53,717 nt of DNA from NCBI RefSeq assembly GCF_003860135.1, contig NZ_RQYN01000016.1, positions 1-53,717 of the forward strand. Direction: 5' to 3'. Position numbers and translations under genes: made by a program. The notes beneath the pieces were generated by a model that did no database searches, was not told where the DNA came from, and saw only the letters and a list, made by a program, of their open reading frames with translations. Origin of the DNA: Tannerella forsythia (GTDB taxonomy: Bacteria > Bacteroidota > Bacteroidia > Bacteroidales > Tannerellaceae). Shown piece by piece: positions 4,939-19,909 of the stretch. The number at the start of each line of letters is the position of its first letter. The stretch's first letter is position 1.

Positions 4939-5397
4939 GGCTTTCACCATTTCACCTCTCCCTCCTGAATTTAACCCAAATTACGCGATACACTGTTCGG
5001 CGTTTACCATTATTTAATTGTTAATTGTCAATGGTTAATTGTCATACCGGGTACATGATTCGGCGTTATTTACCGGGTACATGATTCTTATACTTTCTAT
5101 TGCGGAATCCGGGTTAAAATAAAGCTCCTATCGCGTAATCCGGGTTCAAGGAGCCTATGAAACTCTTCTCTCCGCTTTCTCAAATAATGAACCAAATGTT
5201 CGGTATATCAATCTTCTGTACGTCAGGTCAACTATTTGCCTTAGACTTCCTTCAGATTCCGATTCGGAACGGAACCCCCTTGTCTTCGGCAGCAACCTTC
5301 CCCCTATGAAGGAGGTTCAGGGACTCTCTTTCTTAGAATATGCCCATGCAGGGGAAACCACAAAAAAAAGCGGTTCACCCTTTCTTACACACCGAAA
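4939..5397. other. Intergenic stretch with short direct repeats; no gene seen
   Basis: There is no convincing ORF. A 17-bp direct repeat TACCGGGTACATGATTC occurs at 5045-5061 and 5071-5087. A 10-bp repeat AATCCGGGTT occurs at 5106-5115 and 5137-5146. The strip 5009-5042 contains TTAATTG-type motifs resembling the HU-leader octamer. The paired repeats could be binding sites or remnants of a mobile element. Confidence 0.6.
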
Positions 5398-5460: not shown

Positions 5461-6213
5461 TTACTTTTCAGTGCTTTCTGTGCGCTCGGGCTGGATGATT
5501 TCCAACAGCTCTACTTCGAATTCAAGCGTCGCGTGAGGTTTAATCATCTGACCCGCTCCGCTGGCTCCGTAGGCCAGTTCGGACGGAATCCATACCTGAT
5601 ATTTAGCTCCCACAGGCATGAGCTGCAACACTTCCTGCCATCCGCGGATCACCTGCGTAACCCCGAAGGTGGCCGGTTCACCACGCTGTACGGAACTGTC
5701 GAACACGGTCCCGTCAAGCAATTTACCGGTATAATGTACTTTCACCCGATCGGCTTCGGTCGGCTTCGCACCCGTACCTTCGGTAAGTACCTTATATTGC
5801 AGGCCGCTTTCGGTCGTCACAACGCCTTCTTTCGTTTTATTCTCGGCGAGGAATTTCTCCCCTTCGGCTTTTAACGCTTCGGTTTCACGCTGCTGCACAG
5901 CCATGACATATTGCTGAATACGATTCTGTGCATTCTCCGAGCTCATCATCAGGGTAGTATCCCCTTTCAAGGCTTTCACCAAAATATGCGTGAAGACCTC
6001 CATATTAACCGGTCCGTCGGGGAATGTTTTTAAATTCTCCTTCAAACTGGTGCCGATGTTCACTCCCAACGCATAGCTCACCGTGTCGAGCTCCGAAACC
6101 ATCGCCGGTTCTTGAGGAACGGGAGGAGCCACAGCTGTCTTCGTCGTATTACAAGACGTTGCAGCGATCATTCCGACAGCTGCAACACTTGCGATTAGAA
6201 TTCGTACTTTCAT
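5461..6213 (-). CDS. FKBP-type peptidyl-prolyl isomerase, lipoprotein
   Basis: The 250-aa protein has a lipoprotein signal ending in lipobox AATSC (Cys21). An FKBP N-terminal helical dimerisation domain (about 40-130) contains the family signature VSYALGVNIG. The FKBP catalytic domain (about 135-245) has VKVHYTGKLLDGTVFDSS, the conserved RGEPATFGV stretch and ELAYG. It should catalyse proline cis-trans isomerisation and chaperone exported proteins in the periplasm. It is the last gene of a three-FKBP operon; its ATG overlaps the preceding stop codon (TAATG), implying translational coupling. From memory, Porphyromonas has a similar tandem FKBP cluster. Confidence 0.93.
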   Translation of the reverse strand: MKVRILIASVAAVGMIAATSCNTTKTAVAPPVPQEPAMVSELDTVSYALGVNIGTSLKENLKTFPDGPVNMEVFTHILVKALKGDTTLMMSSENAQNRIQQYVMAVQQRETEALKAEGEKFLAENKTKEGVVTTESGLQYKVLTEGTGAKPTEADRVKVHYTGKLLDGTVFDSSVQRGEPATFGVTQVIRGWQEVLQLMPVGAKYQVWIPSELAYGASGAGQMIKPHATLEFEVELLEIIQPERTESTEK

Positions 6214-6929
6214 TATTTCTTGACGATTTCGAGCAACTCTACTTCAAATTCGAGGGTTGCGTTCGGTTTGATCATCTGACCGGCACCGTTAGGACCATAA
6301 GCCAATTCAGACGGAATCCATACCTGATATTTCGATCCAACGGGCATCAATTGCAGTACTTCCTGCCATCCGCGGATCACCTGACCTACCCCGAATACTG
6401 TCGGTTCGCCACGCTGTACCGAACTATCGAATACGGTTCCGTTAAGGAGCTTACCCGTATAGTGGCATTTTACCTGATCTTCAGCCGTCGGTTTTGCACC
6501 CGTGCCTTCGGTGATCACTTTATATTGCAGTCCGCTCTCGGTCGTGATAACGCCTTCTTTCGTTTTATTGGCCGCGAGGAAATCCTGACCGGCTTTCAAT
6601 TCGGCCTCAGCCTCGGTCTGCTGAATCTTCATGACATAGTCGTTTATATACGTCTGGGCCACTTCAGGGGTCATCTTCATGGCTGCCGAATCTTTCATTG
6701 CGGCCATCAATCCGCTCATAAAAGCTTCGTGATTAACGGGTTTTTCGCCGGGGAACGTTTTCAGATTTTCTTTCAGGTTACTTCCGATGTTAATACCCAA
6801 TGCGTAACTTGCACTGTCGATCGGAGCGCTGAGCGCTACATTCGCTGCTCCACCCTGCTGATTACACGAGGTCACTGCCATTCCTGCGGCTACTGCAGCC
6901 GCCATCATTACTACACTTACTTTCTTCAT
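6213..6929 (-). CDS. FKBP-type peptidyl-prolyl isomerase, lipoprotein
   Basis: Paralogue of the neighbouring FKBP genes with the same two-domain plan (FKBP N-terminal helical domain, then catalytic FKBP fold). The true start is taken at 6929 (ATG); the codon at 6938 is TTG and adds only three residues. The signal peptide ends in AVTSC, a lipobox, so the product is probably anchored in the inner or outer membrane and acts in the periplasm. The C-terminal ~110 residues are very close to those of the 5461-6213 product (VFDSSVQRGEP, GWQEVLQLMPVG, KYQVWIPSELAYG), which points to duplication. Its stop overlaps the next start by one base. Confidence 0.93.
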   Translation of the reverse strand: MKKVSVVMMAAAVAAGMAVTSCNQQGGAANVALSAPIDSASYALGINIGSNLKENLKTFPGEKPVNHEAFMSGLMAAMKDSAAMKMTPEVAQTYINDYVMKIQQTEAEAELKAGQDFLAANKTKEGVITTESGLQYKVITEGTGAKPTAEDQVKCHYTGKLLNGTVFDSSVQRGEPTVFGVGQVIRGWQEVLQLMPVGSKYQVWIPSELAYGPNGAGQMIKPNATLEFEVELLEIVKK

Positions 6930-6965
6930 TTTCTTCAATTTTTATTCTATTTATCAATTGCAATC

Positions 6966-7550
6966 TTATACAATATCGAGCAGCTCTACTTCGAACACGA
7001 GCGTACTGTTAGGCTCGATCGTTTCGCCGGCTCCGCGCTCACCGTAAGCCAGTTCGGAAGGGATGAACAGACGCCATTTGGAGCCGACATTCATCAATTG
7101 CAGGGCCTCGACCCATCCGGGAATCACCTGTGAAACACCGAACGTCGCCGGTTCGCCGCGCTGTACGGAACTGTCGAACACGGTGCCGTTAATAAGCGTC
7201 CCATGATAATGGCATTTCACCTTGTCGGAAGCTTTCGGTTTGGCTCCGTCGCCTTTTTTCAATACCTCATACTGCAAACCGCTGGGCAGCGTTACCACAC
7301 CCGCTTTCTCTTTGTTGATACGTAAGAACTCAGCGCCGGCCTGCTTGTTCATTTCAAGTTTCTCAGCCTGTAACTTCATAAAAAAATCATTCAGAATTTG
7401 TTTGGCCTCGTCGTAACTGATAGCCGGCTTCGCTTCGGAGAAAACGTCATTCAATCCCTTGAGAAAGTCGTCCATATTCAATTCCTTGATACCCGAAGCA
7501 CGAAAGTTATTACCAATGCTTAACCCTAAAGCATAGCTGACATTTTCCAT
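6966..7550 (-). CDS. FKBP-type peptidyl-prolyl isomerase without signal peptide
   Basis: First gene of the FKBP operon, 194 aa. It begins directly at the FKBP N-terminal domain (MENVSYALGLSIGNNF) and has no signal sequence, so it should act in the cytoplasm, unlike its two downstream lipoprotein paralogues. The catalytic domain (about 90-194) keeps the family residues in VKCHYHGTLINGTVFDSS, GWVEALQLM and ELAYGERGAGETI. The arrangement supplies the same foldase type to two compartments from one transcript. Confidence 0.93.
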   Translation of the reverse strand: MENVSYALGLSIGNNFRASGIKELNMDDFLKGLNDVFSEAKPAISYDEAKQILNDFFMKLQAEKLEMNKQAGAEFLRINKEKAGVVTLPSGLQYEVLKKGDGAKPKASDKVKCHYHGTLINGTVFDSSVQRGEPATFGVSQVIPGWVEALQLMNVGSKWRLFIPSELAYGERGAGETIEPNSTLVFEVELLDIV

Positions 7551-16869: not shown

Positions 16870-17625
16870 TCAATCTCCCAGAAAGCCCAGTCCGCGTACG
16901 ACGGGATTGAGGTGATACGTATCATCGTCCGTCAGACGCAGCCATCCGACGAGTCCGAAGGCCGTGCGCACGAGGTAATGCTTCGGCAGTTCCTCCGCGA
17001 GCGGATCCATGTTTTCGGACAGCAGCACTTCTACCTCGTAGCCGACGGGCAGACTCGCCACGACCGTGCCGCCGGTACGTTCGCTGTACAGCTTCACCGG
17101 TTTGAGGAGCTTACCTTTGATGCCGGCATAGAGATAGGGCTGGGGCGTTTCCGTGATACGGCCCGCGGCGTACGTGTACTTGCGTCGTTCGTTGATCATT
17201 TTGTTCGTATGTCCGGCCGTGTAGATGACGCCCGAAGCATGAATGCACAGTTCGTCGGCCTGCTCCTCCAAGAGTGTCCGTCCGCTCTCCTCTACGATGC
17301 GAAACTCCGGGTCGGCACTCATGCCGGGGGTGTAGAGGATATAGACGGCCGACGTCATCGAAGTGTTTCGATACGTTCCCACCAGCACATACTCCATCGT
17401 ATTTTCCGCATCGTAACACGGGTGATCGGCGGGCAATGCCTCACAGCGTTTGCGGACCACGGTAAACGTACTCTTGTCGTACCCGAAACGTGCCTGCGAA
17501 TATTCGCCTTCGGGCGAGGCATCGATCCATGTGAGTTGAGTAAAAGCCTTCTCGGCGGTATCTTGTGCCCACAACGCGAGGGCAGTCCATGTCGACAGTG
17601 CGACCGTTAAAATCATTCGTTTCAT
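16870..17625 (-). CDS. Exported protein with C-terminal SH3-like domain
   Basis: About 251 aa from the ATG at 17625, which opens a signal peptide (MKRMILTVALSTWTALALWA). The open frame continues upstream through the 42-bp repeat array and would add a repeated PLTISQSIENEKK segment, but that would bury the signal peptide and is rejected. The C-terminal third (KLLKPVKLYSERTGGTVVAS ... YLVRTAFGLVGWLRL, about 165-235) resembles bacterial SH3-type domains that bind peptidoglycan or peptides. The N-terminal part is unassigned. A perfect palindrome TTCCGGCCGGAA (16852-16863) lies just after the stop. Confidence 0.75.
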   Translation of the reverse strand: MKRMILTVALSTWTALALWAQDTAEKAFTQLTWIDASPEGEYSQARFGYDKSTFTVVRKRCEALPADHPCYDAENTMEYVLVGTYRNTSMTSAVYILYTPGMSADPEFRIVEESGRTLLEEQADELCIHASGVIYTAGHTNKMINERRKYTYAAGRITETPQPYLYAGIKGKLLKPVKLYSERTGGTVVASLPVGYEVEVLLSENMDPLAEELPKHYLVRTAFGLVGWLRLTDDDTYHLNPVVRGLGFLGD

Positions 17626-17634
17626 TTCTATTCG

Positions 17635-18057
17635 TTTTTTTTCATTGCTTCGACTATCAGTCAAAGGATGTTTTTTTTCGTTTTCGATGCTTTGACTAAT
17701 AGTCAAAGGGCGCTTTTTTTCGTTTTCGATGCTTTGACTAATAGTCAAAGGTACTTTTTTTTCGTTTTCGATGCTTTGACTAATAGTCAAAGGTACTTTT
17801 TTTTCGTTTTCGGCGCTTTGACTAATAGTCAAGGGGCGCTTTTTTTCGTTTTCGATGCTTTGACTAATAGTCAATGGGCACTTTTTTTCGTTTTCGGTGC
17901 TTTGACTAATAGTCAAAGGTACTTTTTTTTTCGTTTTCGACACTTTGACTAATAGTCAAGGGGCGCTTTTTTTCGTTTTCGACACTTTGACTAATAGTCA
18001 ATGGGCACTTTTTTTTCGTTTTCATTGCTTCGACTATCAGTCAAGGGGTACTTTTTT
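17635..18057. repeat. Tandem array of ten 42-bp palindrome units
   Basis: Each unit is a T-tract, CGTTTTCG, a variable triplet and a palindrome of the form CTTTGACT-aat-AGTCAAAG. Palindromes begin near 17648, 17690, 17732, 17774, 17816, 17858, 17900, 17943, 17985 and 18028: seven steps of 42 bp and two of 43. The two outermost copies share a variant (CTTCGACT-atc-AGTCAA), and the suffixes of internal copies show a B-C-D-B-C-D order, indicating three-unit duplication. The 42-bp period equals four helical turns, so palindromes and T-tracts lie on one DNA face. On the plus strand each hairpin is followed by T6-T9 like an intrinsic terminator; on the minus strand (the direction of both flanking genes) it is not. 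Confidence 0.97.
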
Positions 18058-18079
18058 CGTTACGAAGAAAAGATTTCTT

Positions 18080-19909
18080 TTATCTCGATCCTCCGCCATA
18101 ACCTCCACCGGTAGAGCCTCCGCCACCGCCCCACGACGATGAACCTCCTCCGCCTGCAAAAGAACCGGCACGCTCCTTGTTCTTATAACTTACCATACTG
18201 CGACGAAAATCTTTCCCGACCTTACGCGTCATGGCATCGGCCGTAATCATATCGGCGATAAAAGAATGCTGACTGAAGTATTCGGGATAGAGCGATTTGA
18301 ACTCTTTCAGCACCCGATCGGCAATGCCGTAGAGGGAAGCAAATGTCAGATAAGCGTTCCACAAGGCCACCTCTTTGGCTTGACGTTCGTTGATGAGACT
18401 GAAATCGGACAGGTAGTTTTTGAATTGGGGCACCGTTCGCGCCATCTGCTGTCCGCGGCGGGTAAATTTCTGTTTCAACACGGCGCCGTTACGGTCGAAA
18501 TACTTTTCGCCGTACCTTTTCGTCGAATCCATCCATTTACTCATTCGTTCGCCGTTGCTGTGACTGCTTTTCGCCCACTTCGAAAACTCGTCGGGTTGCA
18601 GCGTCAGGTCTTTTCCGGCAGCGGCACGTACAATTTTATAAAGCCGATATTCAATGCCGTCCGTAAATTCCGATTCGGAGGGCATCTCGGTCGCAAACGA
18701 AAGTTTCGGCTGTTTTTCGCCGGGTAGATAACGCATACGAATCGTCCCATTTTGTATCATACGTAACAACATCGCGCTGATGATGTTCGGGTTCCATGTC
18801 TTCCAAAAAGGGTAAGCCTTGCAGATGATATAATTGGCAGCCAGCAAATCGCCGTCGAAGGGGATGTCGCGTCCCCAGTCAGTGACTTGTCTGACCCCAT
18901 ACACCGGCTTTCGTGAGGTAATCCCCACGCCATCCAAAATCGCATAGACAATGAAACCGAGAAGGAGGAGTAGAAGGCCTCCCAGAAGTACGTATTCGAA
19001 CTTTTCGATCGCGAAATAGACGATCAAGAAGCATACGGGCGCGAGCAGAACCGTATACAGTATTCGTTTCCAACCGCGAGGCAGGAAGATCTGCAAAACG
19101 GCAAGAAGCCCTATCACAACGAAGACGTAGGTGGCGAAATCCATCAGCCGGTCGGTCGCGCTTTGCTTCGCATAATCGCTTCCTTTAAAAGCACGTTCTT
19201 TGATGGTATCAAACGACTCGTCGCGCACGTCGGAGGGAGTGAAAACATGCTTCTCGAAACGCGCCATCACGATCACGGCATCCTCCTTTCCCAAAGGGTT
19301 GCTCGTTTTTGCCACAATCTCTCCGCCGATAACGTGTATCTCGCCCTTGAACCCGAACGCCCATACGCCGGTTTCTTCCTTGACGAAAGGCACGACGGAA
19401 TCGGCCGTCAAAACCTTGCGGATCACGACGCGCACCTGCCGGGGCGCGTGGCTCAATCCGCGCGAAACGAATTGATGATTGAACCCGTCGAAGTCTGAAA
19501 ATCCTTTGACAAAGTTCGTCATCGTGTACGACACGGTGAACGTATGACTGCCATACGAACCGATGCCCCAGCACAGCTCATAGTCTCCTGCTCCTTTACG
19601 TACGATGCCGCAGCGTCCGGCTTTTTCGAGCATCGTACGCTCCGTATTCCAGTCACCTTCGTTCACATAAGTCTGCCCCGTTTCGTCACTGACAGTCAGG
19701 TCGAGTACCTCGATCGTACCGAGATTCCCTGCCACGAGATACCACTCCGTACCGGTCGATACGTCGATGTTCCATACTTCGGTGACGCGTGCCGTCCCGG
19801 CGGTGTCGAGCGCCACGGCGATGTCTACGCTGTGTACAACGGTCGCCCGCGCTCCCGACGCGACAATAAGCCACAAAAGAACCGATAGGCCCCAGAGTCG
19901 TTTCATCAT
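18080..19909 (-). CDS. DUF2207-family membrane protein
   Basis: 609 aa. A signal peptide (about 1-22) is followed by an extracytoplasmic beta-rich DUF2207 domain (about 24-230; VHSVDIAVALDTAGTARVTE, VSYTMTNFVKGF) and two or three membrane helices (about 258-325). A cytoplasmic region (about 345-570) is followed by a Gly/Ser tail (SSSWGGGGGSTGGGYGGG) typical of the family. DUF2207 proteins are often encoded beside LemA; their function is unknown but envelope-related. The start overlaps the lemA stop by 4 bp (ATGA), so translation is coupled. It is the last gene of the operon that begins at 22295. Confidence 0.88.
   Translation of the reverse strand: MMKRLWGLSVLLWLIVASGARATVVHSVDIAVALDTAGTARVTEVWNIDVSTGTEWYLVAGNLGTIEVLDLTVSDETGQTYVNEGDWNTERTMLEKAGRCGIVRKGAGDYELCWGIGSYGSHTFTVSYTMTNFVKGFSDFDGFNHQFVSRGLSHAPRQVRVVIRKVLTADSVVPFVKEETGVWAFGFKGEIHVIGGEIVAKTSNPLGKEDAVIVMARFEKHVFTPSDVRDESFDTIKERAFKGSDYAKQSATDRLMDFATYVFVVIGLLAVLQIFLPRGWKRILYTVLLAPVCFLIVYFAIEKFEYVLLGGLLLLLLGFIVYAILDGVGITSRKPVYGVRQVTDWGRDIPFDGDLLAANYIICKAYPFWKTWNPNIISAMLLRMIQNGTIRMRYLPGEKQPKLSFATEMPSESEFTDGIEYRLYKIVRAAAGKDLTLQPDEFSKWAKSSHSNGERMSKWMDSTKRYGEKYFDRNGAVLKQKFTRRGQQMARTVPQFKNYLSDFSLINERQAKEVALWNAYLTFASLYGIADRVLKEFKSLYPEYFSQHSFIADMITADAMTRKVGKDFRRSMVSYKNKERAGSFAGGGGSSSWGGGGGSTGGGYGGGSR

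Follow-up and report, generated by a model that had tools for sequence, protein, structure and literature searches.

Tannerella forsythia carries, in the gap between two co-directional genes, ten head-to-tail copies of a 42-43-bp unit built on the dyad TTGACT-N3-AGTCAA; this genome has two further arrays of the unit, which recurs in arrays of a sister species. As a leading but still tentative account, drawn from comparison of the repeats, we read the family as a lineage-specific palindromic minisatellite whose dyad would be kept because something, most likely a dimeric DNA-binding protein, recognises its sequence. The window, the whole stretch of DNA that was analysed (53,717 nucleotides, contig NZ_RQYN01000016.1), has the following features at this locus.

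16873..17625, minus strand: gene downstream of the array, encoding 251 aa without a Pfam family; the sister has a 97% identical protein beside the same array
17626..17647, minus strand: leader of 22 bases, from the last dyad to the downstream start codon; its CAATG and A-run are also found in the sister
17639..18061, minus strand: the array, ten tandem units of 42-43 bp that read TTGACTATTAGTCAAAGYRYCGAAAACGAAAAAAAGYRYCCN in gene sense (YRY, drifting patches)
17648..18046 (first to last), no strand: ten dyads TTGACT-N3-AGTCAA, with exact arms in eight of the ten
18080..19909, minus strand: upstream gene, DUF2207 protein of 609 aa; 89% identical in the sister, beside the same array

The array fills the space between the DUF2207 gene, whose stop codon lies 33 bases ahead of the first dyad, and the 251-aa gene, both on the minus strand. 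TRF delimited it at 17639-18061 with a period of 42 and 10.0 copies, and the palindromes start at 17648, 17690, 17732, 17774, 17816, 17858, 17900, 17943, 17985 and 18028, separated by seven steps of 42 bp and two of 43 bp. The ten 42-43-bp units described by an earlier sequence-only reading were thus borne out, as were its T-tracts, which are 6-9 bases long. Its 19-bp near-perfect palindrome holds with some qualification: apart from the centre, the palindrome is perfect in four of the ten units (17690, 17732, 17774 and 17900), four others have one mismatched outer pair and two an inner mismatch. The latter are the outermost copies, which do share a variant palindrome as that reading had noticed (CTTCGACTATCAGTCAA on the plus strand; one A to G change each on the minus strand). 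The array is not a product of chance, because the 16-base core, allowing three mismatches, matched the window 20 times on both strands versus 0.48 expected, and none of 100 shuffles reached 20.

A three-unit duplication (suffix order B-C-D-B-C-D), also reported previously, was recovered both as a 126-bp TRF period over nearly the same stretch (score 652 versus 539 for the 42-bp period) and as a minimum of unit-to-unit distance at lag 3 (mean 3.67 edits versus 5.0-7.0 at lags 1, 2, 4, 5 and 6). The period is 42 in 22 of 31 units and 43 in the other nine. With a period of 42 the A-tract, of interest for the bent-DNA element that the sequence-only reading had put forward as a possible role, recurs in phase as a matter of course, and the claim that all units face the same side of the helix follows; this helical phasing is, however, arithmetic from the period and has no independent evidential weight, 3 of every 21 integer periods falling within 0.5 bp of a multiple of 10.5 by our own reckoning. 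In a period-compensation test few or no shuffles were as tight, but substitutions that shift segment boundaries also yield this signal, which is given no weight here.

The T. forsythia genome (3.3 Mb in 226 contigs) holds three arrays, which we call C58 (the window array, 10 units), C36 (10 units) and C47 (8 units). A search of this genome for the 19-bp palindrome with up to three mismatches returned 24 matches on each strand, where a control gave 2 forward and 1 reverse; the three arrays account for all 48, as are all 21 exact copies of the core TTGACTNNNAGTCAA (nine in C36, four in C47 and eight in the window). All eight exact cores of the sister genome lie in arrays too, and the exact-core search of both genomes found no single copies of the unit. 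The scattering of single units expected of an ordinary REP element, named in advance as the outcome that would overturn the sequence-only reading, was therefore absent.

Outside these two genomes the family was not recovered. The two-unit pattern, with up to three mismatches, was found in 2 of 123 family genomes, T. forsythia and its sister, and in T. forsythia alone in a sample of 41 genomes without the sister; two other genus members, G041 and G042, contain no exact cores. In a collection of 84,980 species, which may omit records of the T. forsythia genome that holds the window, the two-site pattern occurred in nine stretches, four of them in one MAG, Tannerella sp. S17M_Sa_42, which is the sister. 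The remaining five, from Streptococcus, Paenibacillus (two), Candidatus Formimonas and Anaerocolumna, were taken as independent palindromes rather than family members, their linkers differing in two of five inspected. Another tandem array with this dyad core, about three copies long, is in Streptococcus suis (L021, 3410-3540), its unit being based on TTTGACTGAAAGTCAAA and unrelated to that of Tannerella. When the array was compared by BLAST with 41 genus genomes, 35 had matches at E ≤1; those beyond the two carriers were short (16-50 bases; best E 0.012) and were not counted as family. Searches of 50,697 phage and 72,556 plasmid records gave no match at E ≤0.01, and one IMG/VR contig matching the two-site pattern was set aside for its different linker. 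The array family was not found in the literature on tandem or palindromic repeats of Tannerella and Bacteroidetes, surveyed in part by title among the papers listed and largely outside subscription journals.

Comparison with the sister revealed arrays at orthologous loci. At the window locus, one sister contig begins inside the array beside the DUF2207 gene (89% identical protein) and a second starts in the array beside the downstream gene (97%), so that the array is interrupted by contig ends. The other locus, between the 5'-nucleotidase and DUF6261 genes that flank C36, is complete in the sister with 3 units versus 10 in T. forsythia. Its outer units match in the two species, sharing a TAT spacer, GAAAAGAAAGCA and CGTTGA...TCAACGCGAG, letters hardly seen elsewhere, and seven inner units are extra or lost. 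Given 10 versus 3 units with matching outer units, copies have been gained or lost inside the array; together with the three-unit duplication in the window, this upholds the suggestion of an expanding repeat. Two or more sites are common to both sister species and were therefore occupied before these split. The 42-43 spacing, whose conservation in relatives had been proposed as a check, is kept in the sister.

The third sister array stands at a contig edge, adjoining a hydrolase gene, and shares with C47 variants otherwise unseen (TTGACTAATGGTCAA; similar GGTCA tails). IspG, which precedes C47 in T. forsythia, adjoins the hydrolase in G041 with no array between them; because of these C47-type variants and this gene order, the hydrolase array may be the C47 array. 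This comparison gave no insertion boundary at the IspG locus, because the T. forsythia neighbours differ and the sister IspG contig ends 57 bases past the stop codon, before any array. IspG itself is 89% identical between the two species, or about 11% DNA divergence. The DUF2207 locus of G041 has no such array, but its gene order is also different, and in the two further genus members searched nothing matched the downstream 251-aa protein. At the window locus of the sister, the palindrome has CAATG behind it in the end unit beside the downstream gene, but not in the one beside DUF2207. The window has CAATG behind the palindromes of both end units (17648-17666 and 18028-18046), along with the same GAT spacer and arm G. 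The simplest account would be that a terminal unit was copied from one array end to the other.

Within the unit, conservation is markedly uneven. Counted over 31 full units, agreement with the majority is 368/372 cells in the dyad arms, 236/248 in CGAAAACG, 176/186 in the A-run and 77/93 in the 3-base spacer, which is A/T only in 30 of the 31, versus about 62% in the drifting patches (first patch 58/93, last seven bases 136/217); the units are non-independent and mutation rates may vary along them, so the contrast carries no clean P value. This contrast cannot come from whole-unit copying by itself, though unequal mutation could contribute. Arms were classified in 38 units and are exact in 29. 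Six units (W58_1, W58_10, C47_3, C47_5, C47_6 and G44h_3) have a single A to G substitution in the 3' arm, at two positions only (bases 10 and 14), perhaps representing two events; in RNA of the gene-sense strand each would still pair, as G.U. C36_10 shows a compensatory pair change in its arms, and two units have arm indels, C47_8, in which the six-base arms are kept, and G44U_3.

The genes beside the arrays, DUF2207 (window), 5'-nucleotidase/DUF6261 (C36) and IspG/AHCY (C47), have no evident common function. The DUF6261 protein that follows C36 has 45 matches in G042, a complete genus member (L076, L079, L082 and L083), 7 in T. forsythia, 5 in the sister and none in G041. Other repeat-like stretches (TTAATTGTCAGTTGTCAATTG and CCCCCCTTCGAAGGGGGG) lie beside C47 (L010, 4700-4900), and a related repeat, AATGGTTAATTGTC, is found at 5016-5044 of the window. 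Elsewhere in the window, a perfect 8-bp repeat, TGTTTAAT, is present 8.5 times at 2061-2128 and stops two bases short of the ATG of a 137-aa ORF on the minus strand (1645-2058; by eye, HU-type DNA-binding protein-like). The number of its repeats could alter leader length, making a phase-variable switch possible. An Rfam match to group-II-D1D4-3 (5085-5273, minus strand; 40 bits versus a cut-off of 32) is followed at 5461-7550 by three successive similar minus-strand ORFs, by eye FKBP-type isomerase-like, a tandem gene family.

In the account that we prefer, a 42-43-bp unit would have multiplied into head-to-tail runs at a small number of intergenic sites in the Tannerella lineage, at least two of them filled before the two sister species parted. 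Copies have come and gone inside each array, presumably by slippage or unequal recombination, while the patches drifted and the dyad, CGAAAACG and the A-tract were kept, the conservation of its arms suggesting that the dyad is recognised by its letters. Its most likely reader, a putative homodimeric DNA-binding protein, would sit on adjacent sites spaced about four helical turns apart, and the array would then be a dense candidate binding cluster between genes. Consistent with this are the occurrence in arrays only, the sites common to the sister, the contrast between arms and patches, the A/T spacer and the even spacing. The binding platform for a dimeric protein proposed by the sequence-only reading thus fits the near-constant arms, and the protein itself remains putative. 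Counting against the protein are the lack of single dyad sites outside the arrays, neighbours without common function, a carrier range of two species only, and the one-sided A to G changes (6/6 single-base deviants), which are more in keeping with an RNA hairpin than with a symmetric operator.

A less probable account, although a serious one, is that of a neutral or selfish palindromic minisatellite copied long ago to a few sites and with no role in the cell, in which palindromes drive their own copying and correction and the arms merely look conserved. The difference of 10 versus 3 copies at one locus, the three-unit duplication and the limitation to two species would all be expected of such an element, as would the greater similarity of units within arrays than between them (5.72 versus 7.17 edits on average; 0/5000 label shuffles). 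However, copying is not tightly array-bound, since the distance of several window units to units of C36 is no greater than to those of their own array, and the arrays were retained at common loci through about 11% DNA divergence with near-constant arms beside patches at 62%. We regard as unlikely an RNA element, in which the array would be transcribed with its neighbours and a row of hairpins with A-rich linkers would make the upstream message decay more slowly or separate the expression of the two genes. All three T. forsythia arrays do have the unit on the strand of both neighbouring genes, but agreement in 3/3 has a chance of 1 in 4, and in the third sister array the unit direction is opposed to the adjoining hydrolase, which points towards the array. 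A terminator-like hairpin, seen by eye, also separates IspG from C47. The 3'-arm changes that preserve a G.U pair on the gene-sense strand (6/6) and the compensatory change of C36_10 favour pairing; nevertheless, the six deviants are perhaps two events, which weakens the strand bias, and a constraint on pairing only would predict more compensatory changes. Folding was strong (z of -13.2 sense and -9.4 antisense; 0/100 shuffles each), but tandem palindromes fold well by construction. Recognition by a protein is preferred to an RNA element because it is the letters of the arms, rather than their pairs, that are kept.

Terminator-like polarity of the T-tracts and a block to antisense transcription had also been proposed. 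On the plus strand a stem is indeed followed by T7-T9, and a lax scan picked out six of the ten palindromes, its total for the region being 10 hits versus 5.2 (sd 2.5) in shuffles. The likeness was overstated, however: the stem has 8 pairs, only 3 of them G-C, and 4-5 bases separate it from the T-tract, unlike an ordinary intrinsic terminator, and we consider a row of such terminators very improbable. Least credible is a coding repeat, whether a 14-residue repeat extending the downstream protein or a separate small protein. A frame is open from 17943 into the downstream gene, and C36 and the short sister array each have one stop-free sense frame; yet the 43-bp steps disrupt the frame, and each of the three sense frames contains 5-9 stops in the window and C47 arrays. 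At the sister junction the A-run differs in length and, by eye, the frame meets a TGA overlapping the ATG of the gene; this closed frame argues against a conserved coding extension.

The family behaves like a tandem satellite, and it was set against several known classes. Clustered operators of dimeric regulators have letter-conserved half-sites, an A/T spacer and even spacing. The Tannerella arrays share all three, including inverted half-sites conserved by letter (368/372), but differ in having no single sites elsewhere. They also have the properties of a satellite: units of a single sequence follow one another head to tail at several sites (10, 10 and 8 units), and copy number varies between related genomes (10 versus 3), here between species rather than strains. 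A CRISPR was rejected because the linkers resemble one another, with identities that average 0.82, 0.81 and 0.85 in the three arrays, and Rfam gave no match to the array at gathering scores nor at E ≤1, in agreement with the view that no named repeat family is involved.

Porphyromonas gingivalis belongs to the same order as Tannerella. Its 464/PgRS (41-nt) and BrickBuilt (23-nt) repeats are described as lying within MITE-like elements with terminal inverted repeats (PMC4596501). Both these and the Tannerella arrays are species-restricted intergenic tandem arrays of short repeats, but the latter lack terminal repeats and shared flanks, the 41-nt repeat being compared by its description (PMC4596501). 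The longest exact inverted match between the 150-base flanks is 6-7 bases in all three arrays, and the 300-base flanks of the three share matches of 10 bases at most, which set aside a BrickBuilt-type MITE. REP elements of the GTAG and CGTC superfamilies are described as dispersed, standing singly or as opposed dimers and bearing an unpaired tag, CGTC REPs having the unpaired CGTC at one end, a loop of 4-5 and mostly opposed dimers (PMC3733652). REPs, as there described, and the Tannerella unit are alike in being short palindromes between genes whose stem measures about 8 bp (PMC3733652). The Tannerella unit, in contrast, occurs in head-to-tail arrays only, with none of the 21 exact cores or 48 looser matches outside them, and has a spacer of 3; a GTAG tag stands beside the stem, on either strand, in 0/31 units, and CGTC lies within 6 bases 3' of the arms in 5/31 and in the last 8 bases in 3/31. 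Nor was a link to RAYT supported, PF01797 genes numbering none in T. forsythia and the sister (91% complete) and one each in G041 and G042, which lack the unit.

A close likeness is to the 46- and 37-bp intergenic satellite families described in Leptospira interrogans, non-coding tandem repeats present at several genome sites (PMC6749651). These and the Tannerella arrays are both long-unit and non-coding, and in each a single family recurs around the genome. The conserved dyad, the fixed orthologous positions and the co-orientation with genes are features of Tannerella that do not figure in the passages of the Leptospira description by which the two were compared (PMC6749651). Non-coding long-unit satellite families are described in the same account as scarce in bacteria (PMC6749651).

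The array family is ordinary in kind and unusual in form. It separates two things that are usually confounded, the copying of whole units and the constraint on one part of the unit. Even without a function, it offers a candidate typing locus for this Tannerella group, and the arrays mark places where short-read assemblies may break, the sister contigs ending inside them. If the dyad is bound, array length would be a natural dial for the number of binding sites, as in the sisters with 3 versus 10 units at one locus. A bolder and rather unlikely extension is a chromosome-anchored platform, in which a lineage-specific protein would coat the head-to-tail dyads, spaced four helical turns apart with the A-tract between them, at a few fixed intergenic sites, and array length, changed by slippage, would tune the strength of the effect on neighbouring genes or local chromosome structure. 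If true, such a platform would give a bacterium a cis element that resembles a satellite and occurs in arrays only.
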